From the NCBI RefSeq assembly GCF_014217805.1, contig NZ_CP055156.1, forward strand, positions 4,222,585 through 4,286,584: a DNA stretch of 64,000 nucleotides. Reading direction: 5' to 3'. Numbering within the stretch: position 1 is the stretch's first letter; each line of letters opens with the position of its first letter. Below, in pieces: positions 11,786 through 34,381 of the stretch. A model generated the notes under the pieces. The model saw nothing but the letters and a program-made list of their open reading frames with translations, was not told where the DNA came from and did not search any database. Origin of the DNA: Adhaeribacter swui (GTDB lineage: Bacteria; Bacteroidota; Bacteroidia; Cytophagales; Hymenobacteraceae). The translations under genes and the position numbers were made by a program.

Positions 11786-11802
11786 TATCCTGTTGTATCC
11801 TG
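11786..11802 (-). promoter_or_regulatory. tandem heptamer motif, copy a (upstream of FG-GAP gene)
   Basis: On the minus strand CAGGATA-CAA-CAGGATA, two perfect heptamers with a 10-bp period, pointing towards the gene starting at 11636. Unlike copies b, c, e and f, no good -7 box is seen exactly 20 nt on. See the finding on the shared motif. Confidence 0.6.
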
Positions 11803-11928
11803 CTTTGGTTGCCTTGGGCTTTTGTTTTGATTTGTAATTTTTAAAATTTTAAAAATAGAATTGCTTTTATTTTTACTGGCCGGCAATCTAACACACTACC
11901 AGAATATTAAGGGCAAATAACACCCAAG

Positions 11929-11973
11929 CAGGATAGGACAGGATAGAAATCCCTGGGTTAACAAATACATTAG
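11929..11973 (+). promoter_or_regulatory. tandem heptamer motif b with -7 box (DUF1080 promoter)
   Basis: CAGGATA-GGA-CAGGATA at 11929-11945, then 20 nt, then TACATTAG at 11966-11973, one base from TAnnTTTG. The start codon follows 118 nt later. A second possible -7 box, TAATTTTG, lies at 11991-11998. The rest of the 450-bp spacer (11643-12090) is AT-rich and holds no gene. Confidence 0.6.
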
Positions 11974-12090
11974 CAAAACATTCGGTTTATTAATTTTGTA
12001 AAATCCGGCGTTTTACCGGGTTTGGCGGCTTAATAAATACCGGATGGTTTGTCTAAAATTTAAAAATTTAAAAAATAAATCAATAGCAAT

Positions 12091-12870
12091 ATGTTTAAGA
12101 AAGCGTTTTTTACCGGAATTCCGGTAGCGGTATTGTGCGTAGGTTTACTTACCGGCAGTTGCCAAACGGCCCGGTCGGGCCGCCAAAGCGAAGCCGGATT
12201 TAAATCTATTTTTAACGGCAAAAATTTGCAGGGCTGGGATGGCGATACCAAATACTGGCGCGTAGAAGAAGGTACTTTAGTGGGTGAAATTACGCCGGCT
12301 ACTTTGTTAAAAACCAATTCGTTTATAATCTGGAAAGGCGGCACGCCCGCCGATTTTGAATTAAAAGGCTCGTTCCGGATAACCGAAGATGGCAACACCG
12401 GCATTAACTACCGCAGCGAACAACTCACCGATATTCCGTTTGCTTTAAAAGGGTACCAAGCCGATATTGACGGGAAGATTCGCTATACCGGGCAAAATTA
12501 CGAAGAGCGGGGCCGCACCACCCTGGCTTACCGCGGCGAAAAAGTAACGGTAAATACCCAACCCAATGCTTCGGATCCGGCATCTTTCCGGGCTAACGTA
12601 AAGAATAATGCCTGGCAAGCGCGCGAAGTTACCGGCTCTTTAGGAAAATCCGATTCTTTGCAAACTTTAATTAAATCTAACGATTGGAACGAGTTTCATT
12701 TAATTATAAAAGGTAACCGGCTGCAGCACTACGTAAACGGCGTTTTAATGAGCGACGTAACCGATAATGACACCGTAAACCGCAAAATGAAAGGTTTGCT
12801 GGGCGTGCAGGTACATGTGGGGCCGCCCATGAAAGTGCAATACAAAGACTTGCGTTTGAAACAATTGTAA
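12091..12870 (+). CDS. DUF1080 lipoprotein (3-keto-glycoside cleaving family)
   Basis: A 259-aa lipoprotein: signal and lipobox LLTGSC near residue 28, then one DUF1080 domain with the family marks FKSIFNGKNLQGWDGDTKYWRVEEGTLVGE, GGTPADFELKGSFRI, NTGINYRSE, GYQADID and WNEFHLIIKGNRLQHYVNGVL. The fold is a concanavalin-like jelly roll. Family members have been linked to cleavage of 3-keto-glycosides made by Gfo/Idh/MocA dehydrogenases; such a dehydrogenase and a TIM-barrel partner lie 4-7 kb away (17140-19373). The gene is divergent from the FG-GAP operon, has its own CAGGATA-type promoter and a strong terminator. Activity is inferred from the family. Confidence 0.88.
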   Translation: MFKKAFFTGIPVAVLCVGLLTGSCQTARSGRQSEAGFKSIFNGKNLQGWDGDTKYWRVEEGTLVGEITPATLLKTNSFIIWKGGTPADFELKGSFRITEDGNTGINYRSEQLTDIPFALKGYQADIDGKIRYTGQNYEERGRTTLAYRGEKVTVNTQPNASDPASFRANVKNNAWQAREVTGSLGKSDSLQTLIKSNDWNEFHLIIKGNRLQHYVNGVLMSDVTDNDTVNRKMKGLLGVQVHVGPPMKVQYKDLRLKQL

Positions 12871-12887
12871 AAGCAAAAAATTTAAAA

Positions 12888-12924
12888 AAAGGGCCAGATT
12901 CTAAAGTTTAATCTGGCCCTTTTT
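12888..12924. terminator. bidirectional terminator
   Basis: GGGCCAGATT (12891-12900) pairs perfectly with AATCTGGCCC (12910-12919) around a 9-nt loop, with A-runs before and T-runs after. It serves the DUF1080 gene (plus) and the convergent histidine kinase gene (minus), whose stop codon is at 12923. Confidence 0.9.
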
Positions 12925-17139: not shown

Positions 17140-18303
17140 TTATTTTACCAGTTCGTCCACTTCAATGCTTTTCCAACTGCGGGTGGCGGCCGATTCCAGC
17201 ACCGCTTCGCATACCTTTTGGGTTTCTAAAGCTTCCTGAAAAGTAGGGGAGCAAGGTTCGCCGTTCTCCAGACTTTTTAAGAAATCGGCTACCTGGTGCA
17301 CAAAGCTGTGCTCGTACCCAATGGATAAACCTGGTACCCACCACTTGTTCATGTACGGTTGATCGCCATCGGTTACGTGAATGGAACGCCAGCCCCGCAC
17401 TACGGATTCGTCGCGGTGATCAAAGTATTCCAGGCGGTTTAAGTCGTGTAAATCCCATCGGATAGAAGCTTCTTCGCCGTTAATCTCAAACGTATACAAA
17501 GCCTTGTGGCCACGAGCGTAACGGGTAGATTCAAACAAACCTAAAGAACCGTTCTCGAAATGGCAATGGAATATACAGGCATCATCAATACCTACTTTTT
17601 GCTTTTGACCGGTTAAAGCGTGGGTACGCTCTTTCACGAAAGTTTCGGTAACCGCCGACACATCGGTAATGCTGCCGTTGAGCCACAAAGCCGTATCGAT
17701 GCAGTGTGCCAGTAAATCGCCGGTTACCCCGGAACCAGCGGCTTCGGCATCCAGGCGCCAGGTGCCCGTTCCGCCTTGAGGAATATCCGCGCTAATGGTC
17801 CAGTCTTGCAAGAAGTTAGCCCGATAATGGAATATCCTACCCAGTTTACCCGAATCGATAATGTGCTTGGCCAAAGTTACGGCCGGTAAGCGGCGGTAGT
17901 TATACCAAACGGTGTTGGGTACGCCCGCTTGCTGAATGGCATCTACCATTTGCTGGCCTTCGGCTAAGGTGCGCGACAAAGGCTTTTCGCACAAAATCAT
18001 TTTACCGGCAGCCGCAGCGGCTATGGCTATTTCGGCGTGGGTATCGTTGGGCGTGCAAATATCAATGGCATCAATATCGTCGCGGGCAATTACTTTTCGC
18101 CAATCGGTTTCGTATGATTCGTAACCCCATTGCTCGGCAAAAGCTTTTACGCGGGCTTCGTTGCGGGTACATACGGCTTTTAACACGGGTTTATATTCTA
18201 GTTCCGGAAAAAAATCGCCTACCCGCTTGTAGCCGTTGGTGTGCGTGCGGCCCATAAAACCGCCGCCAATTAATCCAATTCTTAATTCTTTTTTATTACT
18301 CAT
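17140..18303 (-). CDS. Gfo/Idh/MocA-family oxidoreductase
   Basis: A 387-aa NAD(P)-dependent sugar or polyol dehydrogenase. The Rossmann motif [16 protein letters not shown] opens the protein, [11 protein letters not shown] at about residues 108-118 contains the conserved catalytic Lys of the EKP motif, and [14 protein letters not shown] carries the DxxxH-type active-site His region. The C-terminal part is the usual beta-sheet substrate domain. It is last in a run after a TIM-barrel isomerase-like gene 5 bp upstream, so the two are surely co-transcribed. Members oxidise at C1, C2 or C3 (for example inositol or 3-keto-sugar formation); which applies here cannot be read from sequence. Confidence 0.92.
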
Positions 18304-18308
18304 TTTAA

Positions 18309-19373
18309 TTATCCGATTAATGATTCTTCTTTCACTGCCACGGGTTCGTTCCAGCCGTGGGCTTGCCGTACTTTAATCATGGTGGCTAATATGTCGTTCC
18401 AGGTTTGTTGGTTGTTCATTACCTGATTCGGGAACATGCAACCATCCCAGCAGATGTGCTGGAAAGCCTTCGTTAACTGACCGTTTTCGTCGCGCAGCCA
18501 GTGGCCGGCATCTTCCACAATGTTTAATTTACCGTTTGGGTCGAGGGCCTGGCAATGGCGGCCGGTTTTATCGTGCGAGCCGGAGCCAAACACGGTGCCA
18601 TCGTTCTGGGCCACGTGGAAATCGATGGTCCAGGGGCGCAGCGCGGCGGTTAATTGTTTTAAACCGGCAGTTAAAGGTTCCCGGTCGCTCCAGTCGTAAT
18701 TTTCGGGTAAAATACGGTCTTGGGGGCTGTTATACCCCATCAGGTACAATAAAGTATGTGCCATATCTGCTTGGAAACCCATGTTGGGCCGGTTTACGGC
18801 TTCTAAGGTTTCGATCATGGCGCGCCAACTGTGCATGCCCGCCCAGCAAATTTCCCCTTCGGCGGCTAGTTTCTCGCCAAAGTCGGCGGCTACGTCGCAG
18901 GCTTGCTGAAACGTTTGCACAATCAGTTTGGAATTATTTACCGGATCAACGGCCCAGCTTTGCGGCGAACTAGCCGAGTCGATGCGGATTACGCCGTACG
19001 GCCGCACGCCTAAGTCGCGCAGTTTTTGGCCGAATACGCAGGATTTCCGCACACTTTCTACAAACTGTTTGCGGTCGGCCTCACTGCCCATAGCTGGCCC
19101 GCCCCAGATAGGAGCTACCATGCTGCCAATTACCAGGTTTAAATTACCCACTTTATCGGCCAGGCGTTTAATGTCATCATCGCTGCTGTCGATGTTAATG
19201 TGCGGGTCCATGAGACCAATGTCGATGCCGTCGAATTTCACGCCGTCTACTTCGGCGGCGGCCGTCATTTGCAACATGGTATCGAACGGAATTACCGGCT
19301 CGGAATCCGGACCTTTGCCTACCAGGCCGGGCCAGGTGGCGTTATGGAGTTTAGGAAAATTATTGTCAGTCAT
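18309..19373 (-). CDS. xylose-isomerase-like TIM-barrel sugar isomerase/epimerase
   Basis: A 354-aa AP_endonuc_2-type barrel (sugar phosphate isomerase/epimerase superfamily). Metal-binding positions are suggested by [36 protein letters not shown] and [12 protein letters not shown], and [10 protein letters not shown] near the end. Its 3' end is only 5 bp from the Gfo/Idh/MocA gene, a pairing common in pathways where a sugar is oxidised to a keto form and then isomerised or cleaved. The upstream neighbour in the run (cupin, 19855-21078) is separated by 480 bp of repeat-bearing spacer, so this pair may have its own promoter. Substrate unknown. Confidence 0.85.
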
Positions 19374-19459
19374 AAGGCTAATTTTTAAATTTTTGTAAGT
19401 TTTAATTTATTAATCCTTAATGGTTTATTCGCAAAGCGCTTTATAGAGCTTATGTGTTT

Positions 19460-19657
19460 TGCCAGTTGGTTCTCGTTCGCATAGCTGGCTGAGTTACTTT
19501 ATTTCTAAGTGGAGCTGTTTCATTGCTCGCTTCTTGTTCTTTTTGTCTTGACACAAAAAGAACCAAAAAAGTCAAGACGCTAAAAACTCGCTGAACGCTC
19601 AGACAGTTTAGCGTCGTTCCTTGCACCTGGCTGAAGCTGTTTGTTGCATCGCTGACG
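19460..19657. repeat. dispersed hairpin repeat, module A, copy 2
   Basis: Nearly identical to 7390-7595 through the nested hairpins (TTCTTTTTGT/ACAAAAAGAA; GACGCTAAA/TTTAGCGTC), but module B is missing. It fills the 480-bp spacer (19374-19854) between the TIM-barrel and cupin genes, which otherwise shows no gene. Confidence 0.8.
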
Positions 19658-19824
19658 AAGTAAATTCAAATTTTTAAAAATTTAAATTTCCATTCACAGT
19701 GTTTTCCAGAAGAAACCTATTTAGCTGCGCAGCAGAATCACTCTCCATCGGTATTGCTCTATTAAATCATCCTTGATGAAAGTCGAGCGTTACGTGACTT
19801 GCTCCAAGGATGATTTTTTAATAA

Positions 19825-19848
19825 TCTAGTGTCTAGTGTCTAACATCC
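19825..19848. repeat. short dispersed word TCTAGTGTCTAACATC
   Basis: TCTAGTGTCTAGTGTCTAACATC just after the cupin stop codon; the 16-mer TCTAGTGTCTAACATC returns at 29171-29186 between rhaI and the kinase gene. Confidence 0.6.
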
Positions 19849-19854
19849 AAAATG

Positions 19855-21078
19855 CTAAAGCACCAAGTCCGGATTGTTCGGGCCGAAGTGTTTCAGCATT
19901 ACAATGGGATCGTTGTTAGATGGGTTGGTGATAGTTACACCTTCTTGGGCGGCTCTTTCGCTCACGAAAAACTCGTCGTTGGTTAATTGGCCGTAGCGGA
20001 TTAAAGCCGGCGTTTCAATATCCCATACGCCCATTTTGCCGTGGCCTTGCATTACGATTAAGCCGTAAGCAGCGGCATCTTTAATGGTAACGGTTTGGCC
20101 GGGCAATACGGTTAATTCTTTGGCGCTGTAGGCTTCGTTTTTGTAGCAAATCCAATTTTCGATGTAGCCTTCGGCTTGCATTTCGGCTAGGTCTTTTACT
20201 GGTTTAGGCCGCATAAAATGGTTTTGCATGAAGTTGGGATCCACGTTGGCCTCCCAGTCGATTACTTCTACTAACAGGTCGTAATCGCCTTTGCGGTCTT
20301 CGGGAGTTCCTTTCCACAACAGTTCTTCCGGGATAATAGCTTCGTTTACCAACGACTGGTACATGGCAAAAATATCGGAGGCTTTTTGCGGCTCGTAGGT
20401 ACACAAACTGCCGGGCGCGTGTAAAATTCCCGGGGGCACGTCCCAACCGGTGCCGGGCTCTAGGCGGTAAGCCGAAGAATAATTGGTTATTTTGTTATCG
20501 CCTTTGGTAAAGTTCTGGAGGCATTCTTTGATTTGTTCTTTGGTAGTACCGGGGGCAAAACCAAAAAACGTATAAGGAAAATCGCCGCCGTGGTTATTCA
20601 GTTGCGGCGGGAAATAGTAGGCTTCGGGTTTACCGGCCTGGCCCACCATGGCCGCGTACTCGTCGCTGTGGTGAATGTGGTGGGGCAGGGGACCCATGTT
20701 ATCGAAAAACTTAGAATACATTGGCCAGGCCTGGTATTCGTTCCAGAGGCGCTCACCAATTACTTCGCCTTTTAACTCGTCAATTACATCTTTTAGTAAG
20801 ATTTGCTGGTCTTTGGAGCCATCGTTAAAAACCACGGCGCTTAAGCCTTCGTTTTCGCCGGTAAGCGGACCATTTTGCGCCGGGGTGGTAGACGATAACC
20901 AGCGTTCGTCAATGCCGCCCCGCTCGCCGCCGAGTACGTAATAATCATCGGGGTGCAATTTTATGCGGCGGCCAGGTACGCAAAACGAACGGGGTACCCA
21001 GGTGGGAGCTAACCGCAAAATGCCTTTTCCTTGCTCTAATGCTTTGGCTGCTAAACTTAATTTTTCCTTAGTTTCCAT
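19855..21078 (-). CDS. cupin protein, mannose-6-phosphate isomerase-like
   Basis: About 407 aa from the ATG at 21078 (METKEKLSLAAKALEQ); the frame is open to 21150, but that would overlap the upstream gene and adds no family sequence. The protein resembles large cupin sugar isomerases: GPLPHHIHHSDEYAAM gives a His-rich metal site, YRLEPGTGWDVPPGILHAPGS gives a second cupin motif, and the C-terminal half holds another cupin-like region (LTVLPGQTVTIKDAAAYGLIVMQGHG). It starts 10 bp after the DUF4432 gene and is clearly in the same operon. Likely an isomerase for the sugar released by the locus; the exact reaction is not evident. Confidence 0.8.
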   Translation of the reverse strand: METKEKLSLAAKALEQGKGILRLAPTWVPRSFCVPGRRIKLHPDDYYVLGGERGGIDERWLSSTTPAQNGPLTGENEGLSAVVFNDGSKDQQILLKDVIDELKGEVIGERLWNEYQAWPMYSKFFDNMGPLPHHIHHSDEYAAMVGQAGKPEAYYFPPQLNNHGGDFPYTFFGFAPGTTKEQIKECLQNFTKGDNKITNYSSAYRLEPGTGWDVPPGILHAPGSLCTYEPQKASDIFAMYQSLVNEAIIPEELLWKGTPEDRKGDYDLLVEVIDWEANVDPNFMQNHFMRPKPVKDLAEMQAEGYIENWICYKNEAYSAKELTVLPGQTVTIKDAAAYGLIVMQGHGKMGVWDIETPALIRYGQLTNDEFFVSERAAQEGVTITNPSNNDPIVMLKHFGPNNPDLVL

Positions 21079-21088
21079 TAAACTTAAT

Positions 21089-22156
21089 TTAATTAACTTG
21101 ATAATTCTGTATAAAAGGGGCAATAGATTCTGGGGTTGAGAGTACTTCAATTTCCAGGTAATACTGCCGGGATTCGCCGGGTTCCAGGTAAATTAACGTA
21201 TTTTGTTCCCGGGCTTTACCCTGACCAATGGGCGGGTTGGTGCCGGGTTCCAGGCCGGTTACGTATTCGTTTTTGCCCCAGTGTTGCCAGTTGGTTAACC
21301 AGGGCAGTTGACTCTTCGGGAATCGCAATGCCAGGGCAATACCCAGTTGGGCGTTATGCAAACCGGCGGTACAAACGCCCGCCTTATCGGCTTCTATCTG
21401 AATAAAAGCTACTTCTTCGCCAGTGCCGGCGTGCGCTTCTAAAGGGGCCAGGCATTTTTTAAAATTTTTGCCTTCTTGGAAGATCTTGGATTCGGTTACC
21501 TCCCCCGGCGATTCCCAATTACCCGACCAGATGAGGTCGGTGCCTTCGTCCACGAGGGGCCAGCCAAAATTGCAATGGTACAGCAGCATATGCGGTGCCG
21601 TTTGGTTACCCCGGTTAATAACCGTATCTTGAATTTGAATTTTAGCTTCGCCCAGGGTGCTGGTGATGGTGCGTTTCAGTTCCAGGCTGGGACCCAGTAC
21701 CTGGGTTTGTTTCATGCGGCCGGTAAGTTGCATCTGCAGTTGGCCGGTAAAAATATCGGGTTGAATAATCGATTCTATTTCGGCGGGGATATTACTAATC
21801 TGGCCGTGTAAGCCTAGTTCGCCGGCAGGGCTGTTTTCGGGGCCGCCAAAGTGCGATAATCCGCAAGTTGTAACTAAGCCACCGCCAAAAGTGCGGAGCC
21901 ATTCCAGGCCATGGTTCGAAAAAGGTTCCGGGGAGGTTACACCGGCGTGACTAATCCAGGCCAGACTGTGTTGGTTAAAAAAGGCATCGGCAATGTCCAT
22001 GGCGCGGTCCAGCACTACTTTATACCGTAATCCGGTGCCGGTATTTATCCAGGCGATGCGGGTGCCTTTGCCGGAGCCATTGTCCAGAATTGCGGTTTCA
22101 ATGCCGCCTAATTGCGTAGGGTTAGCTATTTTTTGATGCCAGGGTTGGAGTGCCAA
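21089..22156 (-). CDS. DUF4432 aldose-1-epimerase-like protein
   Basis: A 355-aa member of DUF4432, related to galactose mutarotases. Recognisable parts are KVVLDRAMDIADAFFNQHSLAWISHAG near residue 50, GGGLVTTCGLSHFG, ELGLHGQISNIPAE with the His expected in the active site, and MLLYHCNFGWPLVDEGTDL with a second His. No ATG is available upstream in frame (a stop intervenes), so the TTG at 22156 (TTG GCA CTC CAA) is the best start. It follows susD by about 180 bp that contains a strong hairpin, and leads into the cupin gene. Members probably interconvert anomers of an unusual or keto sugar. Confidence 0.85.
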   Translation of the reverse strand: MALQPWHQKIANPTQLGGIETAILDNGSGKGTRIAWINTGTGLRYKVVLDRAMDIADAFFNQHSLAWISHAGVTSPEPFSNHGLEWLRTFGGGLVTTCGLSHFGGPENSPAGELGLHGQISNIPAEIESIIQPDIFTGQLQMQLTGRMKQTQVLGPSLELKRTITSTLGEAKIQIQDTVINRGNQTAPHMLLYHCNFGWPLVDEGTDLIWSGNWESPGEVTESKIFQEGKNFKKCLAPLEAHAGTGEEVAFIQIEADKAGVCTAGLHNAQLGIALALRFPKSQLPWLTNWQHWGKNEYVTGLEPGTNPPIGQGKAREQNTLIYLEPGESRQYYLEIEVLSTPESIAPFIQNYQVN

Positions 22157-23836: not shown

Positions 23837-23891
23837 TCTATTTAAAAGTTTGAAATTTTAAAATTTAAATCATTTAAGCTTCTGATAGGGC

Positions 23892-26800
23892 TTAGAAATT
23901 AACGTTGATACCAATGGTGTAAGTGCGCGGTACCGGATAGTTCGAAAAGTCGATACCCTGGCTTAAGTTACCGCCGCTACCATCTCCGGAGCCATTACCG
24001 CTGGTTTCAGGGTTAGGGCCGCCTTTGTATTTGGTAAACACGTAAGCTTGCTGAATGGAGGTGTAAAGGCGGGCTGAACGGAACACATTTTTCCACTCAC
24101 CCAAAGTATAACCCAGGGTAATGTTCTTGATAGTAAAGTAAGAGGCATCTTGTATAAAGTGCGTGCTCATCCAATCGCGTTCGATACCAGTTACGTTACC
24201 ACCACCTACAGTTGTACCAAACACACCTTTACCCGGATTTTCTGGGGAACGGAAACGGTCTTTTACGCCTTTTACCATGTTAAATACGCCATCCAGGTTA
24301 GCGGTGCTGTATAAGTGGCGAACCAGTAAATCATTACCGTAAGAACCAGAACCTACAATAGAGAAATCGAACTTGCCGTAGCTTAAATTATTGGTAATGC
24401 CGTAAGTAAAATCCGGGAAGGGGTTGCCAATAATGGTGCGGTCGTCGTTGTCGCCGCCGTTGGTGATAATGCCATCGCCGTTAATATCTCTTAATTTAAT
24501 GCTACCTACCGTAGAACGGCCGGGAACCTGCGGCGAGCTGTTCAAGTCTTCTTCGTTCATGTACAAGCCTTCTTTAATTAAGCCGTAGAACTGACCAAAA
24601 GGCTCGCCTACTTTGGTAATGTGGAAAGTACCGTACACCCGGTCGATGCCTTCAGCTAAGGCAATAACTTTATTGCGGTTAAAAGAAATGTTAGCATTGG
24701 TCGTCCAAACCAGTTTACCTTGAGTGTTACGGGTATTTACCGCAAACTCATGGCCCCAGAAGTCAATTTCACCAATGTTGTCGTTAAAGTTGCTAAAGCC
24801 GGCTTCCTGCGCAATCTGCACGTTGTACAACAGGTTGGTAGTTTTCTTTTTGTAGAAATCGTACATGAAGGTAATGCGGTCTTCGAACAAACCTAAATCT
24901 AAACCGGCATCAAATTGCTTGGTGGTTTCCCAGCTTAAGTTCGGGTTAGCCAAAGAAGTTACCGCCGAGCCAGGAGCTACATTATTACCGAAAGCGGCAT
25001 TTACTGTATTGTTAATAAGGGCATATGGCGTATAGTTACCGATGTTATTATTACCGGTTATACCGTAGCTGGCCCGAACTTTAGCGAAAGATATTTTGGG
25101 AATACTTTTTAAAAATTCTTCATCCGACACTACCCAGCCCACGGAAGCTGAAGGGAAAGTTCCCCAGCGGTTAGCCGAACCAAAACGCGAAGAACCATCG
25201 CTCCGAACGGCCGCGGTGAACAAATATTTGCCTTTAAAATTATAAGTAAGGCGTGATAACAATGAAGTTAAACTCCATTCTTGCACATCGTTAGAAGTAC
25301 CACCCCGGTTAATATTTAAACCACCCTGAATTGTGGGCAAGCGGTCGTCGGCGTACGTATCGGCCTGAATGCGGCTGCCCTCGAACTGGAATTGTTGGTT
25401 GGTATAACCAGCTAAGAGTTCAAAGTTATGATCGTTAAAGCTTTTAGAATAAGTAGCCAGGTTCTCGTTTAGCCAGGTAAATACCTGCACATTGTTCCGG
25501 ATAGAAACAGCCGTGGTAGGTATGGGGGTATTAATGGCGCTGGTAGCCGTAGAGGGGTTAAAGAAAAAGAATTTTGAATTATATAATTCGGCGTTAAAAG
25601 TAGTTTTTAATACTAAATCTTTAATAGGCCGGAACTCCAGGAAGGTATTGCCCAGGATGTTTACGTTTTTATTTTCATTTACTAACTCTTTCGCCGACCG
25701 AACCCAGTTCGGGTAGTCAAAGATGTTACCGGTATTGGCCGGGAAGCGGTTAAATTTCGTTAATTCGCCGTTTTCGTCGTAAATGGGCATTACTGGCCAA
25801 GTGTGCAGGGCGTTAAACAAAATCCCGGTACCCCGGTCGCCGTCGGTGCGGGGCGTATTATCAAAAATGTAGGAAGGCGCCAGGTTAAAACCTAACCGGA
25901 ACTTATCCGATACATCGTAAGTAGTGTTTAAACGCAGGGAGTATCTTTTATACTCGTTGTTTAAGACTACCCCTTGTTGATTAAATACCCCGGCCACTAC
26001 CGCCGTATTTACTTTTTCTTTGTTAGAGGTAATGGTTAAGTTATAGCTCTGCATGGGCGCGGTGCGCAGTAAAGCATCGTACCAGTCGTTGTTTTTACCC
26101 CGGTATTCCGCAGGGTTCTGGAATGCTTCAGGCACGGGTTGGCCGGCATCTTCGTAGTATTCTTTTTTAAATTGGGCAAATTCTTCGGCATTCATCATTT
26201 CAATGCGACCGCGTTGCGGTACTTTCTGGATACCCACAAAGCTATTAAAGCTCACATTGGTCTGGCCGTTCTTGCCCCGTTTGGTAGTAATTAAAACCAC
26301 CCCGTTGGCTGCCCGCGAACCGTACAACGAAGTAGAAGCAGCGTCTTTTAAAATGGAAATATCTTCGATTTCGTCGGGGTTCAGGGTGCTGATGTTACCG
26401 GTAATCGGGAAACCATCAACCACGTACAATGGATCGCTACCACCTAATACCGATAATTGCCCCCGGATACGAACCGAAATGCCTTGGCCTGGTTTACCGG
26501 TGGCCTGGGTAATTTGTACGCCGGCCAAACGGCCTTGTAACTTTTGCGTAACCTGCGACACCGGTACGTCTTTAATTTCTTTGGCCGTAACGGTTTGTAC
26601 GGCGCCGGTAACTTCTTTTTTAAGCTGGCTGCCGTAACCCACTACTACTACTTCTTCTAAAGCTTTGGTATCGGGGGCTAGCGTTACATTAATGTTGGTT
26701 TTGTTATTAATGGCTACTTCCTGGGTAATGTACCCGATAAAAGATACTACTAAGGTGCCATTGCCGTTCGGTACGTTTAACGAAAATCCGCCGTTTGCAT

Positions 26801-26981
26801 CGGTAGCCGTACCAGTAGAGGTTCCTTTTACCAATACAGTTACTCCGGGTAAGCTTTCGCCGGTGTTACTAGATACTTTGCCGGTAACCTGTAAACCCTG
26901 CGCCCAGGCACTCGTAAGAGTAAAAAATAACAAATGCAGAACGCCTAAGTACTGCATTGTTTTTAGTAGTTTGTGTTTCAT
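23892..26981 (-). CDS. SusC/RagA-family TonB-dependent transporter
   Basis: A 1,029-aa outer-membrane transporter. After the signal peptide comes a carboxypeptidase-regulatory-like domain (LQVTGKVSSNTGESLPGVTVLVKG, residues 30-105), a TonB box region EEVVVVGYG, the plug (VRIRGQLSVLGGSDPLYVVDGFPI, then DAASTSLYGSRAANGVVLITTKRG) and a 22-strand barrel ending in TYTIGINVNF with the terminal aromatic residue. It is the first gene of the run SusC-SusD-DUF4432-cupin-(TIM barrel-Gfo/Idh). A CAGGATA-type promoter lies 123-167 bp upstream (27104-27148). Confidence 0.96.
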   Translation of the reverse strand: MKHKLLKTMQYLGVLHLLFFTLTSAWAQGLQVTGKVSSNTGESLPGVTVLVKGTSTGTATDANGGFSLNVPNGNGTLVVSFIGYITQEVAINNKTNINVTLAPDTKALEEVVVVGYGSQLKKEVTGAVQTVTAKEIKDVPVSQVTQKLQGRLAGVQITQATGKPGQGISVRIRGQLSVLGGSDPLYVVDGFPITGNISTLNPDEIEDISILKDAASTSLYGSRAANGVVLITTKRGKNGQTNVSFNSFVGIQKVPQRGRIEMMNAEEFAQFKKEYYEDAGQPVPEAFQNPAEYRGKNNDWYDALLRTAPMQSYNLTITSNKEKVNTAVVAGVFNQQGVVLNNEYKRYSLRLNTTYDVSDKFRLGFNLAPSYIFDNTPRTDGDRGTGILFNALHTWPVMPIYDENGELTKFNRFPANTGNIFDYPNWVRSAKELVNENKNVNILGNTFLEFRPIKDLVLKTTFNAELYNSKFFFFNPSTATSAINTPIPTTAVSIRNNVQVFTWLNENLATYSKSFNDHNFELLAGYTNQQFQFEGSRIQADTYADDRLPTIQGGLNINRGGTSNDVQEWSLTSLLSRLTYNFKGKYLFTAAVRSDGSSRFGSANRWGTFPSASVGWVVSDEEFLKSIPKISFAKVRASYGITGNNNIGNYTPYALINNTVNAAFGNNVAPGSAVTSLANPNLSWETTKQFDAGLDLGLFEDRITFMYDFYKKKTTNLLYNVQIAQEAGFSNFNDNIGEIDFWGHEFAVNTRNTQGKLVWTTNANISFNRNKVIALAEGIDRVYGTFHITKVGEPFGQFYGLIKEGLYMNEEDLNSSPQVPGRSTVGSIKLRDINGDGIITNGGDNDDRTIIGNPFPDFTYGITNNLSYGKFDFSIVGSGSYGNDLLVRHLYSTANLDGVFNMVKGVKDRFRSPENPGKGVFGTTVGGGNVTGIERDWMSTHFIQDASYFTIKNITLGYTLGEWKNVFRSARLYTSIQQAYVFTKYKGGPNPETSGNGSGDGSGGNLSQGIDFSNYPVPRTYTIGINVNF

Positions 26982-27103: not shown

Positions 27104-27148
27104 TAAATTTACCGGCAAAAAAATGTCAGACTATCCTGCACTGTCCGG
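27104..27148 (-). promoter_or_regulatory. tandem heptamer motif c with -7 box (susC promoter)
   Basis: On the minus strand CCGGACA-GTG-CAGGATA (27148-27132), exactly 20 nt, then TAAATTTA (27111-27104), which differs from TAnnTTTG only in the last base. The susC start codon is 122 nt further on. Confidence 0.6.
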
Positions 27149-27687: not shown

Positions 27688-27704
27688 CAGGATAGGGCAG
27701 GACA
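27688..27704 (+). promoter_or_regulatory. tandem heptamer motif d (orphan orientation)
   Basis: CAGGATA-GGG-CAGGACA on the plus strand, with an extra inverted half-site CTATCCTG at 27662-27669. It does not face a gene start: downstream on the plus strand is the 3' end of the kinase gene. It might drive an antisense transcript, act in looping with copy c, or be a relic. Confidence 0.45.
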
Positions 27705-27758: not shown

Positions 27759-29090
27759 CTATTGCCATATTTGTAAGGCCATGGCTGCACCCAGCGCCGT
27801 ACCTTGCGAATTTTCTGCAACAATGATTTGCAGGGTAGGAAATGCTTCTTGCAGCAAAGCCATAAAAATTTTGTTTTTACTAAATCCGCCGTCCACTAGT
27901 AAGTATTTAAAGGCAGCTAAGCGGTATTCGCTAGCCAGGTGTATCGCCTTAATCTGGGGCGCCAGGAGTTGCCGTATTAAAGCATGGTAAGCTTCTTCGT
28001 AGGTTTGGTAAGCGCCGCCATCAAACTGCTTGGCAATTTGGTAGTTAAAGATAATTTTAGCGGAAGCCTCCCCCGATTCCGGCATTCCCGAGCCAGCTGG
28101 CACCATACTGGGCGTAAACTCGGGTTGGTATACCACAGTTTTAAAATAATCTAGCGGTTTATTAAAATGCGCCGCCAGTTTTTTGGTTTGTACTTCGTGC
28201 TCGTTACCAATAAATACCCGCGAAGCCCGTACCGGATTGCCATTGTAGGTTAAATAATTCAGACAGTCTTGTTGCAGCATTTCTTCGGTGAGCGGCTCTT
28301 GGGCAAACGGGTTGAGCGTAATGCCCCAGGTGCCGGTAGAAAGTAATAAAAAAGGCTCCTGGTATTTTTGTAAATACGGAATTAAAGCCGCCGAACTGTC
28401 GTGGAGGCCAATGCCCACTGGAATTTGCTTATTCCGAAACTTAATGCTGAAAGTAGTATTATAGTCGGTAATACGGGGTAGCAGCGAAATAATATCTTCC
28501 TGATAAACCCAGTTGTGGTACTGATTTTTAGTAAAATCCCAGAGGCCGGTGTGGCACCCAATACTGGTATATTCCGACACGCGCTGCCCCGAAAACTGAA
28601 ATGCGCAGAATTGAGGCAAATGCAACGAACATTTAATCTGGCTAAATAGATGTGGTTTTTTGTATTTAAGCCAGTAAAGTTGTTTTCCTGAGTTAAGCAT
28701 GCCTAAATCCGGCGAGGCCGTTTGGGCAGAAAACGTCAGCTTAGAGCCGTACTGCGCGTGGAACTGCTGGTCTAAGTCTTCAGGAAAAGGTTTTAAGTAA
28801 GAGTATAAGGGAGTAGCTGGTTTATTTTGCGCATTTAAGTGCACAAAACTGGCCCCGTAGGTAGTAAAATTAAGCCCCCGAATATCAAATTGGGTGTTGT
28901 TTTCGAGATGTTGCCAGGTTTGTTGTAACCAGTTAATCAAGGAATTTAAATCTTCGCTTGGTTCGCCGTCGTCGTCGGTAATTTCAGGAAAGCGCGTTTC
29001 TATTTCGTGGATAATCCGATATTCCGGGTCAAAAAGAACGCATTTCTTGTTGGTTTTACCTATATCAAATACCGCTACGCAAGGAACCAT
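27759..29090 (-). CDS. FGGY-family sugar kinase, probable L-rhamnulokinase
   Basis: A 443-aa FGGY kinase. The N-terminal phosphate-binding loop is AVFDIGKTNKKCVLFD (residues 6-21), LLLSTGTWGITLNPF marks the second ATPase lobe, and LLVDGGFSKNKIFMALLQEAF with GTALGAAMAL near the end is the FGGY C-terminal lobe. It would phosphorylate L-rhamnulose to rhamnulose-1-phosphate with ATP. The assignment to rhamnulose rather than another ketose rests on the neighbours: rhamnose isomerase upstream (114 bp), the rhamnulose-phosphate aldolase fusion and RhaT on the same strand. Kinases of this subgroup also act on fuculose, so that is the main alternative. Confidence 0.85.
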   Translation of the reverse strand: MVPCVAVFDIGKTNKKCVLFDPEYRIIHEIETRFPEITDDDGEPSEDLNSLINWLQQTWQHLENNTQFDIRGLNFTTYGASFVHLNAQNKPATPLYSYLKPFPEDLDQQFHAQYGSKLTFSAQTASPDLGMLNSGKQLYWLKYKKPHLFSQIKCSLHLPQFCAFQFSGQRVSEYTSIGCHTGLWDFTKNQYHNWVYQEDIISLLPRITDYNTTFSIKFRNKQIPVGIGLHDSSAALIPYLQKYQEPFLLLSTGTWGITLNPFAQEPLTEEMLQQDCLNYLTYNGNPVRASRVFIGNEHEVQTKKLAAHFNKPLDYFKTVVYQPEFTPSMVPAGSGMPESGEASAKIIFNYQIAKQFDGGAYQTYEEAYHALIRQLLAPQIKAIHLASEYRLAAFKYLLVDGGFSKNKIFMALLQEAFPTLQIIVAENSQGTALGAAMALQIWQ

Positions 29091-29204: not shown

Positions 29205-30488
29205 CTACAAACCGGTAGTGTAAGTTTTAAGACCACGTTGTTTAATAAGCTGCTGCCGGATTTTTTGTTCGCGGTAAAACGCTAAGGGCTGCAAGGCCGC
29301 TCCGCTTTGTAACCGGGCTTGCGCCAGCAAAGGCCGTACATCTGTCCGGAAGGCTTGTTGCAGAATTTCCTGGGCCTGGGTGGCATCGTTTTGTTCCTGG
29401 GCTTTTTCCAGCGCTTGCCGGTCGATGATTAAGGCTTGGGCATACGCTATTTTTATGGCTTCTACCGATTGCAGTAAATCTTCCAGCGGGTCTTTTACGT
29501 TGTGGCTGGCGTCAATCATCCAGCTTAAAGGCGGGTTTTTTACTTCGGCGCTGATCATGCCTTCTACCAGTTCGTTAAAAATTAAAAATAACTGGAAAGG
29601 CCGCATGGCGCCCACGGTTAAATCATCGTCGCCGTATTTAGAATCGTTAAAGTGAAAACCGCCCAGTTTGCCTTCCATCATAAACCGCGACACAATTTGT
29701 TCGATGTTGGTATTGGGTAAATGATGGCCTAAATCAACCAAACCCAAGGCTTTCTCGCCGAGTTTCTGGCAGAACAGGAGGGAAGTACCCCAGTCGGCAA
29801 CTACCGTGGAGTAAAAATGAGGTTCGTAGGGTTTGTATTCAATAAATACTTTCCAATCATCGGGCAATGTTTCGTAAATCTGCTGAAACGAATCCAGGGT
29901 ACGCTGAAATGCACGCCGGAAATTTTGCTGCCCCGGAAAATCCGAACCGTCCGATAACCAGATCGTTAACGCTTTGGAACCTAACGCCACGCCGTGTTTA
30001 ATTACTTCTACGTTATGGGCAATAGCCTGGTCGCGCACGTGCTTATCGGTGTGCGACAAAGAACCGTATTTATAGGAATGCGCCTGGTCTTCCTGGTCTT
30101 GAAAAGTGTTGGAATTGACGGCATCAAACTGCAACTCAAACGAAGCCGCTAATTGTTTAATGGCTGTTGCATTCTGCGGGATGTCCCAGGGAATGTGCAG
30201 CGAAATAGCCCCACTCGATTGATTTAAAGCGTGCAGTAACCCGACATCCTCAATTTTTTCTTCTAAGCTCCGCGGTTCCCCGCCACCCGCAAAACGGCCA
30301 AACCGGGTGCCGCCCATTCCTAAAGCCCAACTGGGAATGGCTACTTGAAAGGCAGCGAGTTGCTCCAGAATAGCGTTTACGTTGTGGCCTTCGTCTTGTA
30401 AAACACTTTGCAGGTACTTAAACTTTTTATCCTGGCTCGAGGCTAAAGTTTGGTTATGTTGGTCAATCAGCGATTTATCCAGGATCAT
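29205..30488 (-). CDS. rhaI: L-rhamnose isomerase, RhaI type
   Basis: A 427-aa TIM-barrel isomerase of the Pseudomonas-type RhaI family rather than E. coli RhaA. Visible blocks include WALGMGGTRFGRFAGGGEPR near residue 55, SLHIPWDIPQ, KALTIWLSDGSDFPGQQNF, VFIEYKPYEPHFYSTV with the metal-binding Glu, GLVDLGHHLPNTNIE with Asp/His, and GGFHFNDSKYGDDDL with His and Asp ligands. It converts L-rhamnose to L-rhamnulose. It stands between the aldolase fusion upstream (243 bp) and the kinase downstream, completing the pathway. Both spacers carry repeats but no extra promoter that I can see. Confidence 0.92.
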   Translation of the reverse strand: MILDKSLIDQHNQTLASSQDKKFKYLQSVLQDEGHNVNAILEQLAAFQVAIPSWALGMGGTRFGRFAGGGEPRSLEEKIEDVGLLHALNQSSGAISLHIPWDIPQNATAIKQLAASFELQFDAVNSNTFQDQEDQAHSYKYGSLSHTDKHVRDQAIAHNVEVIKHGVALGSKALTIWLSDGSDFPGQQNFRRAFQRTLDSFQQIYETLPDDWKVFIEYKPYEPHFYSTVVADWGTSLLFCQKLGEKALGLVDLGHHLPNTNIEQIVSRFMMEGKLGGFHFNDSKYGDDDLTVGAMRPFQLFLIFNELVEGMISAEVKNPPLSWMIDASHNVKDPLEDLLQSVEAIKIAYAQALIIDRQALEKAQEQNDATQAQEILQQAFRTDVRPLLAQARLQSGAALQPLAFYREQKIRQQLIKQRGLKTYTTGL

Positions 30489-30730: not shown

Positions 30731-32857
30731 TTAACGCACAAATGCGGCTGGTACGCCACCATCCACGTTCAATACGTTGCCGGTGCTCTTGTTGAGTAAG
30801 CCACCCACGTATAAGAACACGGCATTCGCCATATCTTCGACCAGTAATTCTTCGTTTAATACCGTACGTTTGGCGTAATAAGCTGGCAGTTCAGCCACGG
30901 AAATGCCATAAGCTTTAGCCCGACCTTCGGCCCAGCCGCTTTCCCAGATTTTGCTGCCCCGGATTACCGCATCTGGATTTACTACATTTACCCGTATCTT
31001 ATCAGAACCCAACTCGGCAGCCATTAACCGCGACATGTGTAATTGAGCCGCTTTGGCAGTACCATAGGCAATGTTATTAGGCCCGGAAACCAAGGCATTT
31101 TTACTCACAATGTTTACAATATCACCACCCAGTTGTTGCTTGCGCATTATTTTAACACCTTGCTGCGATACTAAGAATTGGCCTTTTACCAGTACATCCT
31201 GCAGTATATCGTAATCAGCTTCGGTGGTTTCCATCATGGGCTTAGAAATAGATAAACCGGCGCAATTCACCACAATATCTACGCCGCCAAAAGCTAGATT
31301 TGCCGTTTTAAAAGCTTCAGCAATGGCTTGCGAACTGGTAACATCTACAATCGCGGTGGCGGCGGTATCGCGGCCAAACTTTTTATTAAATTCCGCTTGC
31401 GCTTCCTGAATATCAGCTTCGCGCATATCAACCATTACCACGCAGGCACCTTCCTGAGCCAGTTTATCGGCAATAGCTTTGCCAATGCCGCCGCTACCAC
31501 CGGTAATTAAGGCAATTTTGCGCGACAAAGGTTTTTCTTTGGGCATGCGTTGCAGTTTGGCTTCTTCTAATAACCAATATTCAATATCAAACGCTTCTTG
31601 TTCCGGCAAACCCTGGTACTCCGAAATAGCTTCGGCACCCCGCATTACGTTAATGGCATTTATGTAAAACTCGCTGGCTACGCGGGCCGTTTGCTTGTCT
31701 TTGGCGAACGAAAACATGCCTACGCCGGGGTAAATAATTATTACCGGATTCGCATCGCGAACCGCCGGGCTATTCGGGTGTTTGCTGCGTTCGTAATAAC
31801 CGGTGTAATCGGCCCGGTAAGCTTCAAACTGGGCAGTAAGTTGATTTTTTAAATTTTCAGCATCTGAGATGTCCGCATCCGGAGTTAAATTTAAAACCAA
31901 AGGCCGTATTTTGGTGCGCAAAAAGTGATCGGGGCAACTGGTACCCAGCGGCGCTAGTTTATCTAAATCGTGGCTGTTAATGTATTCCAACACGCGTTCG
32001 TCGTCGGTGAAATGCCCGATCATGCGATTTTGGCTGGAGCACAAACCCCGCAGCACCGGAATCATTTCGCTGGCTTTGGCTAGGCGTTCTTCAGCGGGCA
32101 AAGACTGAATTTTAGCGCCGCCAAATACCGGCCGATCCTTCCCATAGTTTTGTTGCAAATACTCCGATGCCTTCTCAATAGTTTCTAAAGTATTGATATA
32201 GCTTTCGTAGGCAGTATCGCCCCAGGTAAACAAACCGTGGCTGCCCAAAATAATGCCTGTAATACCCGGATTATCTTGTACGGCTTTTTCCATCTGTAAA
32301 CCTAAGTCAAAACCGGGCCGCTGCCACGGCACCCAGGCTACTTTACCGCCAAACAATTCGCGGGTAATTTGTTCGCCGTTTTTGGCGGCCGCAATGGCAA
32401 TAATGGCATCGGGGTGTAAGTGGTCGATGTGCTTAAAAGGTAAAAAAGCGTGTAAAGGCGTATCGATGGAAGGCGCTTTGGAATCTAAATCATAAATGCA
32501 ATGATTAAACAAGGCTACCATTTCGTCTTCGTGGGCTAAACCACGGTAGCGGTTTTTCAGGCTGTGCAATTTATCGACGTACAATGCCGCCAGGCCACTT
32601 TTCTTTAAAGTGCCCAGGTCGCCGCCGGAACCTTTTACCCACATTACTTCTACATCCTGGCCGGTTAAAGGGTCGGGCATATCTACTTTGCAACTGGTGT
32701 TGCCTCCGGCGTAATTGGTTAAGCGTAAATCGGCGCCCAATAAATTAGAACGATAAATTAAAAGCGCTACCTCATCATCCTTTAGAGAATTGGCTACTTG
32801 CTCGTCCCAGAGATAACTTACGTATTTAAATGTGGTGGTTGCAGTCGAATTATCCAT
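30731..32857 (-). CDS. rhamnulose-1-phosphate aldolase / lactaldehyde dehydrogenase fusion
   Basis: A 708-aa two-domain enzyme (RhaE-RhaW arrangement). Residues about 20-340 are a class II aldolase/adducin domain with metal-binding histidines in FKHIDHLHPD (His143, 146, 148) and SHGLFTW (His207). Residues about 446-708 are a short-chain dehydrogenase with TGGSGGIG at 452-459 and the catalytic Tyr598-x3-Lys602 (YGTAK). The first half splits rhamnulose-1-phosphate into dihydroxyacetone phosphate and L-lactaldehyde; the second oxidises (or reduces) the lactaldehyde. The gene has its own CAGGATA-type promoter at 32996-33040 and follows rhaT. The length is normal for the fusion. Confidence 0.93.
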   Translation of the reverse strand: MDNSTATTTFKYVSYLWDEQVANSLKDDEVALLIYRSNLLGADLRLTNYAGGNTSCKVDMPDPLTGQDVEVMWVKGSGGDLGTLKKSGLAALYVDKLHSLKNRYRGLAHEDEMVALFNHCIYDLDSKAPSIDTPLHAFLPFKHIDHLHPDAIIAIAAAKNGEQITRELFGGKVAWVPWQRPGFDLGLQMEKAVQDNPGITGIILGSHGLFTWGDTAYESYINTLETIEKASEYLQQNYGKDRPVFGGAKIQSLPAEERLAKASEMIPVLRGLCSSQNRMIGHFTDDERVLEYINSHDLDKLAPLGTSCPDHFLRTKIRPLVLNLTPDADISDAENLKNQLTAQFEAYRADYTGYYERSKHPNSPAVRDANPVIIIYPGVGMFSFAKDKQTARVASEFYINAINVMRGAEAISEYQGLPEQEAFDIEYWLLEEAKLQRMPKEKPLSRKIALITGGSGGIGKAIADKLAQEGACVVMVDMREADIQEAQAEFNKKFGRDTAATAIVDVTSSQAIAEAFKTANLAFGGVDIVVNCAGLSISKPMMETTEADYDILQDVLVKGQFLVSQQGVKIMRKQQLGGDIVNIVSKNALVSGPNNIAYGTAKAAQLHMSRLMAAELGSDKIRVNVVNPDAVIRGSKIWESGWAEGRAKAYGISVAELPAYYAKRTVLNEELLVEDMANAVFLYVGGLLNKSTGNVLNVDGGVPAAFVR

Positions 32858-32995
32858 ATCCGATTATGTTTAAGTTTTTTTATTCTAAAGATGATTTGGT
32901 TTTTAAATTTTTGCGTTTGCTATTATTAAGGTGAAGCGGGAGAAAGTAATAAATTTAAAAAATGGGTTTGTTGCCTTTTCCGGTTTTACCATTAT

Positions 32996-33040
32996 CAAAT
33001 GTAGTTATTATACCCCTTTAGGCCATCCTGTGCTATCCTG
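32996..33040 (-). promoter_or_regulatory. tandem heptamer motif e with -7 box (aldolase fusion promoter)
   Basis: On the minus strand CAGGATA-GCA-CAGGATG (33040-33024), 20 nt, then a perfect TAnnTTTG box, TACATTTG (33003-32996). The start codon is 138 nt further on. Confidence 0.7.
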
Positions 33041-33111
33041 TCGGGGTTTTTATATCTTGCAGAAGGTCGGTTTAAGTTGATTGTTTGTTACTGTAAACGC
33101 GGCAGTTTTGT

Positions 33112-34182
33112 TCAGGAGGCCAGGTAATTTCCGTAGCCCACTACCATCGTAGAAATAATTACCGTAACAATGCCCAGAATAATAACCCGCATGGTGCGGG
33201 CACTGGCGCCTTTCCATTCGTTAAAATAAATGCCCCAGATATTACTCACGATAATAATAAAGGCCATGTGTAAGGTCCAGCTACTAAAACCTAGGCCGTT
33301 GGCCGAAAAAAGGCTTTCGCCCATGCCGTAAAAAAAGAACTGCAAATACCAGGTGGTACCGGCAATGGCCGAGAAAAGATAATTGCGGACTAAAGGCGTG
33401 GCTTTGTTTACGTAATCGCCGCCGGTTTTATTTTTGATATTTAAATACAAACACCAGATAATGTTGGTAGTTAAGCCGCCCAGTAAAATAACCACCAGGG
33501 TAGGATTGTTTTGCCATAACGGATCGATGCCGCGGGCCACGGTGGCTTCGGCGATGGGTTTGCCGGTTTCGTACCCAAACGACATAAAGGCGCTGAGCAC
33601 CCCTGAGAATATGGCCACCAGAATACCTTTCGGGAAATTAAACTCCTTGATGTTTTCGGTTTTTTGTTCCGGCGATAATTCTTTTTCTTTTAAAGTGCCG
33701 GCTTTGCCGCAAATGCCAATACCCACTAAACACAGTAAAACCCCGGCAAAAATAATTAGTCCGGAAGTAGTGCTGAGCAGTTCGGTAATGGTTTTGGCGT
33801 TACCGGACCGGCCAAAAAACTCGTAAAATATGGGTGGTATAAGCGTGCCGAAGGCCGCACAAAAACCCAAAACAATAGCCATACCCAACGACAAACCCAG
33901 ATACCGCATGGTTAAACCAAAGGTTAAACCACCTATGCCCCACAGTAAACCCATTAAATAGGTGTAAAACAAAGTAGAAAAAGGCGTGTGGGTTAAGGTT
34001 TCTAAGTAGCCGGGTGCTGTAAGGGCGGCGCCAATGGGCGGCACAATTAACCACGAAAAAATACCTCCCACCAGCCAGTAACTTTCCCAGGCCCATTGTT
34101 TTACGCGATTAAACGGTATGTAAAAACTGCCGGAGGCAAAGCCCCCGATAAAATGGTAAAATAATCCCAGAATGACCTGCAT
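33112..34182 (-). CDS. rhaT: L-rhamnose/H+ symporter RhaT
   Basis: A 356-aa inner-membrane protein with about ten hydrophobic helices, of the drug/metabolite transporter-like RhaT family. The start LGLFYHFIGGFASGSFYIPFNRVKQWAWESYW is typical for RhaT, as are GLLWGIGGLTFGLTMRYLG and GETWYLQF-like AGTTWYLQFFFYGMGES. It imports L-rhamnose with protons. It is the first gene of the rha run, with the rest on the same strand downstream, and its CAGGATA-type promoter lies at 34337-34381, in front of a 155-nt leader. Confidence 0.93.
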   Translation of the reverse strand: MQVILGLFYHFIGGFASGSFYIPFNRVKQWAWESYWLVGGIFSWLIVPPIGAALTAPGYLETLTHTPFSTLFYTYLMGLLWGIGGLTFGLTMRYLGLSLGMAIVLGFCAAFGTLIPPIFYEFFGRSGNAKTITELLSTTSGLIIFAGVLLCLVGIGICGKAGTLKEKELSPEQKTENIKEFNFPKGILVAIFSGVLSAFMSFGYETGKPIAEATVARGIDPLWQNNPTLVVILLGGLTTNIIWCLYLNIKNKTGGDYVNKATPLVRNYLFSAIAGTTWYLQFFFYGMGESLFSANGLGFSSWTLHMAFIIIVSNIWGIYFNEWKGASARTMRVIILGIVTVIISTMVVGYGNYLAS

Positions 34183-34336
34183 AGAGGAATAGTTGGTTTA
34201 GAAAAGTAAATTTTTTTTGGAAAAATTGAAATACAAATGGCAATGGAAAATTTTAAAAATTTGCCGGCTAATTCATGATTTTAGCTGTCTATAAAGCCGT
34301 TTTTTAAAAATTTTTAAAATTAATCTACTATATTGG

Positions 34337-34381
34337 GAAATGTAGTTGTAAAAACAAGAGAAACTGTCCTGCACTATCCTG
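34337..34381 (-). promoter_or_regulatory. tandem heptamer motif f with -7 box (rhaT promoter)
   Basis: On the minus strand CAGGATA-GTG-CAGGACA (34381-34365), exactly 20 nt, then TACATTTC (34344-34337), one base from TAnnTTTG and seven of eight bases equal to the box of copy e. TAATTTTG directly before the motif (34389-34382) could be a second box. Confidence 0.65.

Follow-up and report, generated by a model that had tools for sequence, protein, structure and literature searches.

Which factor acts at a repeated, evenly spaced element found between genes of Adhaeribacter swui, and which genes does it control? The stretch analyzed here, referred to as the window, comprises 64,000 nucleotides (nt) of this member of the Bacteroidota (RefSeq assembly GCF_014217805.1, contig NZ_CP055156.1, positions 4,222,585 to 4,286,584 of the forward strand). 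The element is a tandem heptamer, CAGGAYA-N3-CAGGAYA, with a period of 10 base pairs (bp), which a first-pass annotation of the window had proposed to mark the promoters of an unknown regulon bound by an AraC-type activator. We conclude that the sites almost certainly define one rhamnose regulon, and that the heptamers are likely bound by a chimeric protein with a GntR-type DNA-binding domain and a LacI-type sensor domain, as judged from sequence comparison.

Tandem heptamers and promoter boxes in the window and the genome

The window was scanned for the motif with at most two mismatches. Six matches were obtained, at the six positions reported earlier (11786, 11929, 27132, 27688, 33024 and 34365), and none of 100 dinucleotide shuffles reached six (mean 0.51, largest 4). 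The consensus proposed by the first-pass annotation holds perfectly for four of the six sites, and 27132 (CCGGACA...) and 33024 (...CAGGATG) each deviate by one mismatch. As described there, all six sites are intergenic and five face the next gene, with its start codon 144-183 bp away. The -7 boxes said to follow after exactly 20 nt at the DUF1080, susC, aldolase fusion and rhaT sites were recovered as quoted; at the FG-GAP site (11786), the position 20 nt downstream reads CAATTTTA, an imperfect -7 box.

In the 6.2-Mb genome, 13 sites were found with at most one mismatch. Rather than being equally common inside genes, an outcome the first-pass annotation had named as damaging to its proposal, 11 of these 13 lie between genes and two within; ten precede a correctly oriented gene. 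The two intragenic sites (L011 9840 and L013 7748) have no box at 20 nt and are probably due to chance. Allowing two mismatches gave 75 places, versus 17 for the pattern read backwards; the two-mismatch sites (62 of the 75) were set aside, five of the seven inspected with their surroundings lying inside genes. The composite pattern of site, 20-nt spacer and box is matched perfectly six times genome-wide (DUF1080, both susC genes, aldolase, rhaT and rhaM) and, with at most three mismatches, occurs at 26 places, versus seven for the control.

Conservation and spacing in related genomes

The sites were compared with those of a genome of the same genus (G161), in which seven exact sites match seven A. 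swui sites. Over eight site pairs aligned without gaps, the heptamers are 99% identical, versus 37% for the 60 nt upstream, 55% for the spacer and 42% for the 32 nt downstream. The TA and TT letters of the box are identical in seven of the eight pairs, the exception being site 27688.

The spacing was assessed on a set of 58 distinct exact sites (of 65 places) from A. swui and genomes of its order, chosen regardless of the box and including some near relatives. In 30 of the 58, a TAnnTT box follows at exactly 20 nt, whereas the 36 other offsets gave a mean of 0.67 and a maximum of 6, which bears out the preferred spacing claimed earlier. Among these 30 sites, none has a -33-type TTG 19-21 nt before the box. 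Four of the 58 are located well inside an open reading frame (ORF) of at least 150 amino acids.

Rhamnose (rha) loci were collected as the best 80 of 593 matches to the aldolase fusion in a scan of Bacteroidota, and 201 usable upstream regions of their rha genes were searched with a widened motif and at most one mismatch. Sites were present upstream of 28/49 rhaT homologues, 23/43 aldolase genes and 3/5 lutA genes, compared with 1/37 upstream regions of the candidate regulator gene described below and 0/67 regions of rhaI, rhaB and rhaM together. An opposite-strand site occurs in 15/37 regulator upstream regions, which represent a shared divergent stretch. For the 55 sites upstream of rha genes, the best box placement was at exactly 20 nt in 36/56, ties counted. 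The Siphonobacter row (L076, CTTCACAGAG...), followed by a CATGACAGCTCATT stretch, is probably not the true site and was kept in the counts of upstream sites and wing residues. Within the Cytophagales the sites take the forms CAGGAYA, CAGTAYA and CAAGACA, and in Sphingobacteriaceae and Chitinophagaceae CATGAYA-GTN-CATGAYA precedes rhaT.

Content of the regulon

The regulon is no longer of unknown content, since its sites precede genes for L-rhamnose transport and catabolism: rhaT, the rhaEW-rhaI-rhaB operon (rhaD-dehydrogenase fusion, rhaI and rhaB), rhaM and lutABC. RhaT, RhaM, RhaI, the FGGY kinase, the aldolase-dehydrogenase and lactate oxidation by LutABC make up one pathway. The other predicted target promoters, which bring the total to ten, are those of two susC genes, DUF1080, FG-GAP and two haem-binding proteins. 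Outside the window, the intergenic site at 5.49 Mb precedes rhaM (L-rhamnose mutarotase), and a site divergent from it precedes the gene for a haem-binding protein of 918 amino acids; this divergent pair (L009 8898/9090) is 192 bp apart. Sites near 2.16 Mb precede the second susC-susD pair and a haem-binding PVC-type protein of 1060 amino acids, and the site at 4.17 Mb precedes lutABC.

A genome of another genus of the same family (G151) carries six exact sites, all six before orthologues of site-bearing A. swui genes: the susC of the SusCD-DUF4432-TIM barrel-Gfo/Idh operon, the second susC, both haem-binding proteins, DUF1080 and the aldolase-rhaI-rhaB operon. These targets, lutABC and the regulator gene lie within 45 kb (C2:60000-C2:105000), a stretch in which FG-GAP, rhaT and rhaM were not seen, whereas the A. 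swui counterparts are scattered over 3.3 Mb (2.16, 4.17, 4.23-4.26 and 5.49 Mb). A gene set first assembled by the motif alone is therefore largely a physical cluster elsewhere. In a further genome of the family (G171), 13 exact sites were found and the next gene was identified for ten (the others being one site of L215 and two of L221), at distances that in some cases exceed 300 nt and in one reach 1.2 kb. These genes include two RGL11 rhamnogalacturonan lyases, GH43, DUF1080, three SusC-like proteins and an outer-membrane barrel protein, and with the widened motif, sites were also found ahead of GH88, GH28 and DUF4861 genes. GH88 and DUF4861 genes likewise lie behind sites in G164, as do alpha-L-rhamnosidase and GH88 genes in Pedobacter ginsengisoli and a Cesiribacteraceae genome. 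The genes behind sites in relatives thus identify the regulon as one for rhamnose, with rhamnogalacturonan genes in some genomes. The earlier proposal that rhamnose catabolism is tied to the SusCD-Gfo/Idh operon and the DUF1080/FG-GAP group agrees with this, both the motif-defined gene set and the relatives pointing to one regulon. The few characterized DUF1080-only proteins are reported to include the 3-ketotrehalose hydrolase BT2157 (PMC9007349), and the association of DUF1080 with Gfo/Idh and haem-binding proteins suggests that rhamnosides may be broken down oxidatively.

A GntR-LacI chimera as candidate regulator

Gene clusters common to at least 18 of the 80 rha loci were annotated. The sole regulator among them is a GntR-type protein of about 340 amino acids, encoded in 50 of the 80 loci. 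From the 30 loci without the regulator gene nearby, 28 further genomes were searched (L075 and L098 were left out) and 18 of these hold it. The A. swui gene (G000:C3:5489772-5490785, minus strand; 338 amino acids, GntR + Peripla_BP_3) faces rhaM in convergent orientation, with a site about 0.7 kb away, and encodes the only full-length GntR-LacI protein found in the genome; it is 95% identical to its G161 counterpart. An N-terminal GntR winged helix-turn-helix (HTH) domain (PF00392, 45.8 bits versus a cut-off of 27) is combined with a C-terminal LacI/GalR-type domain (PF13377, 35.8 bits versus 26.5), and the DNA-binding domain of AraR is among its matches in the PDB. NCBIfam gives HTH matches only, far under the cut-offs. 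In the structure model of the Algoriphagus orthologue (L123; mean predicted local distance difference test score 85.2), the winged helix is represented by its helices and strands, and the model matches LacI, PurR and CcpA structures, with template modeling scores by target of up to 0.71 among the matches listed.

Co-occurrence was surveyed in 145 genomes of the order, with the regulator called at E ≤ 1e-60 and the motif in its exact CAGG-type form. The regulator is present in 48 genomes and the motif in 21: 19 of the 48 genomes with the regulator have the motif, versus 2 of the 97 without (Fisher p = 5e-9, ignoring kinship), and the latter is about the level of a control pattern (five hits in the 145 genomes). 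In 11 of the 19 genomes that have both, the regulator gene and a site are no more than about 6 kb apart. A regulator tree was built from 101 rows. Residue 72 of the wing is Pro where base 3 of the first heptamer is T (17/17) and Arg, Lys or Gln where it is G or A (16/16). The site is a direct repeat and not a palindromic GntR-type operator, and its recognition by the protein is predicted; in the CATG-N6-CATG forms, the CATG cores taken by themselves also read as an inverted repeat.

The LacI-family gene near rhaT (35919-36992, minus strand) was considered as a source of the binding protein and is not favored, with one weak homologue in the 80 loci. LacI sites are palindromes.

Features of the window

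The sites, boxes and genes of the window are collected in Table 1.

Table 1. Tandem heptamers, -7 boxes and associated genes, in window coordinates
Feature	Position	Strand	Remark
Tandem heptamer CAGGATAGGACAGGATA	11929..11945	+	upstream of DUF1080 (3-keto-disaccharide hydrolase) gene
-7 box TACATTAG	11966..11973	+	exactly 20 nt after DUF1080 site; TAAATTAG in G161
DUF1080 / 3-keto-disaccharide hydrolase gene	12091..12870	+	PF06439
Divergent tandem heptamer CAGGATACAACAGGATA	11786..11802	-	upstream of FG-GAP gene
Imperfect -7 box CAATTTTA	11758..11765	-	at 20 nt; G161 counterpart CAAATTTA
FG-GAP repeat protein gene	10473..11642	-	followed by PSCyt/PSD1 cytochrome-type (7934-10417) and DUF1501 (5807-7273) genes
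Tandem heptamer CCGGACAGTGCAGGATA	27132..27148	-	upstream of susC; one mismatch
-7 box TAAATTTA	27104..27111	-	20 nt from susC site
Likely susC operon	17140..26981	-	putative operon; same gene order behind exact site in G151
susC	23892-26981	-	first gene, likely operon
susD	22340-23836	-	likely susC operon
DUF4432	21089-22156	-	likely susC operon
Protein of 431 amino acids	19855-21150	-	likely susC operon; without Pfam or NCBIfam match
AP_endonuc_2-type TIM barrel	18309-19373	-	likely susC operon
Gfo/Idh/MocA dehydrogenase	17140-18303	-	likely susC operon
Tandem heptamer CAGGATAGCACAGGATG	33024..33040	-	upstream of rhaD-dehydrogenase fusion; one mismatch
-7 box TACATTTG	32996..33003	-	20 nt from aldolase-fusion site
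Bifunctional rhamnulose-1-phosphate aldolase / short-chain dehydrogenase (rhaEW type)	30731..32857	-	NF006191, 1346 bits, above cut-off
L-rhamnose isomerase rhaI	29205..30488	-	TIGR02629, 525 bits, under curated cut-off
FGGY-type sugar kinase, probable rhamnulokinase rhaB	27759..29090	-	Pfam FGGY and operon position
Tandem heptamer CAGGATAGTGCAGGACA	34365..34381	-	upstream of rhaT
-7 box TACATTTC	34337..34344	-	20 nt from rhaT site
L-rhamnose/proton symporter rhaT	33112..34182	-	NF010024, above cut-off
Orphan tandem heptamer CAGGATAGGGCAGGACA	27688..27704	+	past rhaB stop; no -7 box

Sites 11786 and 11929 form a pair 143 bp apart between the divergent FG-GAP and DUF1080 genes. The neighbors of FG-GAP (5807-10417) are PSCyt1/PSCyt2/PSD1 and DUF1501 genes, a set more typical of Planctomycetes. 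Two nested inverted repeats of 101 nt (83%) and 63 nt (84%) lie at 34477-35054, between rhaT and the gene that follows, and resemble the termini of a small non-coding mobile element.

The orphan site at 27688 lies 54 bp past the rhaB stop and points into rhaB. No TAnnTT was found at 20 nt, and the next ORF on the plus strand is 7.6 kb away (ORFs of at least 100 amino acids, overlaps removed). Its heptamers are fully kept in G161 (L230:2205-2221), in diverged surroundings. A loop with site 27132, an antisense RNA or another binding role would be possible.

Proposed mechanism

The favored reading, to which we assign a probability of about 0.7, is that the heptamer would be the site of a rhamnose-responsive GntR-LacI factor acting as class II activator of one regulon. 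The regulator would sense rhamnose or an early intermediate through its LacI-like domain, and its two winged-helix domains would sit on successive turns of one face of the DNA. In Flavobacterium psychrophilum, the -7 box is reported to cover -12 to -5 (PMC9723704); with the transcription start placed accordingly from the box, the site would span -49 to -33 and be centered at about -41. This predicted location agrees with the first-pass suggestion that the motif occupies the place of the -33 box. A center at -41 is the position of a class II activator, and the regulator would recruit RNA polymerase in place of the -33 element. Activation is considered more likely than repression, because a kept distance to the core box is expected of a protein that touches RNA polymerase more than of a repressor. 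A two-fold LacI-type core on a head-to-tail site would have to be joined to its DNA-binding domains by flexible links, as in AraC. The regulon would serve the uptake and breakdown of L-rhamnose and of rhamnose-containing plant material. A wider version is put forward tentatively, at somewhat less than even odds: across Bacteroidota, the chimera, whose domain combination is known from repressors that bind palindromes, may be a class II activator on direct repeats that replaces the -33 contact of the phylum's unusual main sigma factor and turns on not only rhamnose catabolism but also rhamnogalacturonan lyases and a 3-keto-glycoside route (DUF1080, Gfo/Idh, haem-binding proteins).

Several observations weigh against the favored reading. 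Site 27688 has no explanation under it. The exact CAGG-type motif is missing in 29 of the 48 genomes with the regulator, some of which may have CATG or mixed forms and others paralogues of another function. Conversely, a site at rhaT or the aldolase gene occurs in three of the ten genomes in which no regulator was found, all three metagenome-assembled. The association between regulator and site could run through shared rha genes, and the correlation at wing residue 72 proves little because it tracks the family tree. In G171, a fasciclin-domain gene (followed by a SusC-like gene) and a helicase-associated-domain gene also lie behind sites. As to the box, 28 of the 58 exact sites have no TAnnTT at 20 nt. 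Reversed upstream regions also match the widened motif (rhaT 5/49, aldolase 11/43); reversed sequence is a poor control, since CAGGAC partly matches its own reverse, and the offset and footprint tests were used instead. GntR proteins are mostly repressors. They are also described as generally binding palindromes (PMC5320631). Finally, the missing -33 TTG is weak evidence of activation because conservation of the -33 element is low across the phylum (PMC7366714): just one of the 12 intergenic TAnnTTTG boxes of the window has a -33 TTTG, and this element is reported as not found in Flavobacterium johnsoniae either (PMC7366714).

Alternative explanations

The binding protein could belong to another family. 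The AraC-type activator of the first-pass annotation, encoded elsewhere and contacting both heptamers with its two HTH motifs, is now very improbable. Such activators often bind beside or over the -35 region and the genome contains 36 AraC-type HTH (HTH_18) matches, none of them inside the window, for which the absence of an AraC gene had been correctly stated; the nearest is 1.5 kb beyond its left end. A profile built from 12 AraC-type HTH domains of A. swui detected AraC-type genes in 5 of the 80 rha loci, compared with the 50 that encode the GntR-LacI protein. One AraC protein reads two different half-sequences, whereas the heptamers here are equal. RhaR of Bacteroides thetaiotaomicron is indeed AraC-type (PMC3870299, PMC3878776), but the AraC-type RhaR sites of Bacteroides are described as direct repeats with a period of 21 bp and not 10 bp (PMC3870299). 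Improbable too is another protein that recognizes 10-11-bp direct repeats, for instance one of the DeoR family or the OmpR/PhoB type, which would make the GntR-LacI protein a mere neighbor with another site. DeoR-type RhaR motifs are reported as repeats of this kind in four other lineages (PMC3870299), and A. swui has four DeoR-type HTH matches, yet all four are more than 100 kb from any intergenic site with at most one mismatch, and none of the 80 rha loci gave a DeoR-type match with a weak profile (four sequences, one a wrong neighbor; OmpR-type proteins were not searched), whereas the single GntR-LacI gene sits beside rhaM and the rhaM site.

Other readings concern the action at the promoter. 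With the same regulator and regulon, the site could be an operator, the protein blocking the promoter over -49 to -33 and leaving on sugar binding, like Bacillus AraR. AraR-subfamily proteins with such domains are described as controlling genes for arabinose and related sugars in Firmicutes (PMC4494728), AraR is named a repressor in the PDB and the site overlaps the region occupied by RNA polymerase. Repression does not require a fixed distance, yet site and box are exactly 20 nt apart in 30 of the 58 cases, the same spacing recurs in distant families and the -33 TTG is absent in all 30, though the element is weak in the phylum; we regard repression as unlikely. The preferred distance to the -7 box would also suit a promoter element of an alternative sigma factor acting with no activator, but the box still conforms to TAnnTTTG, the consensus of the main sigma factor, familiar -35 elements do not resemble a direct repeat of 17 bp and the regulator co-occurs with the motif, which leaves this idea hardly credible. 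Chance or an interspersed repeat can be practically dismissed given the shuffles (0/100), the intergenic location of 11 of the 13 sites, the conservation of mainly heptamers and box, and the recurrence in other families.

Relation to known systems

The predicted regulator shares with the AraR subfamily (Bacillus subtilis AraR) the N-terminal GntR winged helix, the C-terminal LacI/GalR-type sugar sensor and, according to PMC4494728, the control of sugar uptake and breakdown. It would differ in its site, where direct repeats with a 10-bp period stand at a preferred distance from the -7 box in place of a palindrome, in its sugar, rhamnose, and in being a predicted activator. RhaR of B. thetaiotaomicron likewise controls rhamnose catabolism in the same phylum (PMC3870299, PMC3878776); besides its AraC family and repeat period, it differs in having a single target operon, versus ten predicted promoters in A. 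swui. DeoR-family RhaR proteins (Chloroflexus, Thermotogales, Rhizobiales and others) are described with rhamnose regulons and direct repeats of 10-11 bp (PMC3870299), but belong to another protein family and other phyla, and the Chloroflexus one is reported as a repressor on TCGAAA repeats. A GntR winged helix on direct repeats is likewise reported for NanR, FarR, NagQ and the MocR subfamily (GabR, TauR, PdxR), of which several MocR members activate (PMC4494728, PMC5320631); their sensor domains and sequences differ from those of the A. swui regulator. FucR (BT1272) and ManR of Bacteroides are described as GntR-type sugar regulators of Bacteroidota (PMC3878776), but for fucose and mannose instead of rhamnose, and are likened here by family, not sequence.

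Significance

Direct-repeat rhamnose regulons are already known, according to the sources cited above, with DeoR proteins in other phyla and an AraC protein in Bacteroides. Neither this motif nor a GntR-type regulator of rhamnose genes in Bacteroidota was found described in the literature searched (subscription journals, supplements and RegPrecise were outside its scope). Relative to that literature, the putative GntR-LacI regulator, paired with a direct-repeat site whose distance to the Bacteroidota -7 box is kept, appears to be new. Outside Bacteroides, rhamnose control in Bacteroidota was without a named regulator or site in the literature found. The predicted set of regulator, site and promoter has an exact geometry, which makes promoter activation in this phylum testable with one protein and a few short DNAs. 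Control by the regulon nominates DUF1080, haem-binding, DUF4432, FG-GAP and DUF4861 proteins as candidates for rhamnoside breakdown, and its promoters offer a candidate rhamnose-inducible promoter for Bacteroidota.

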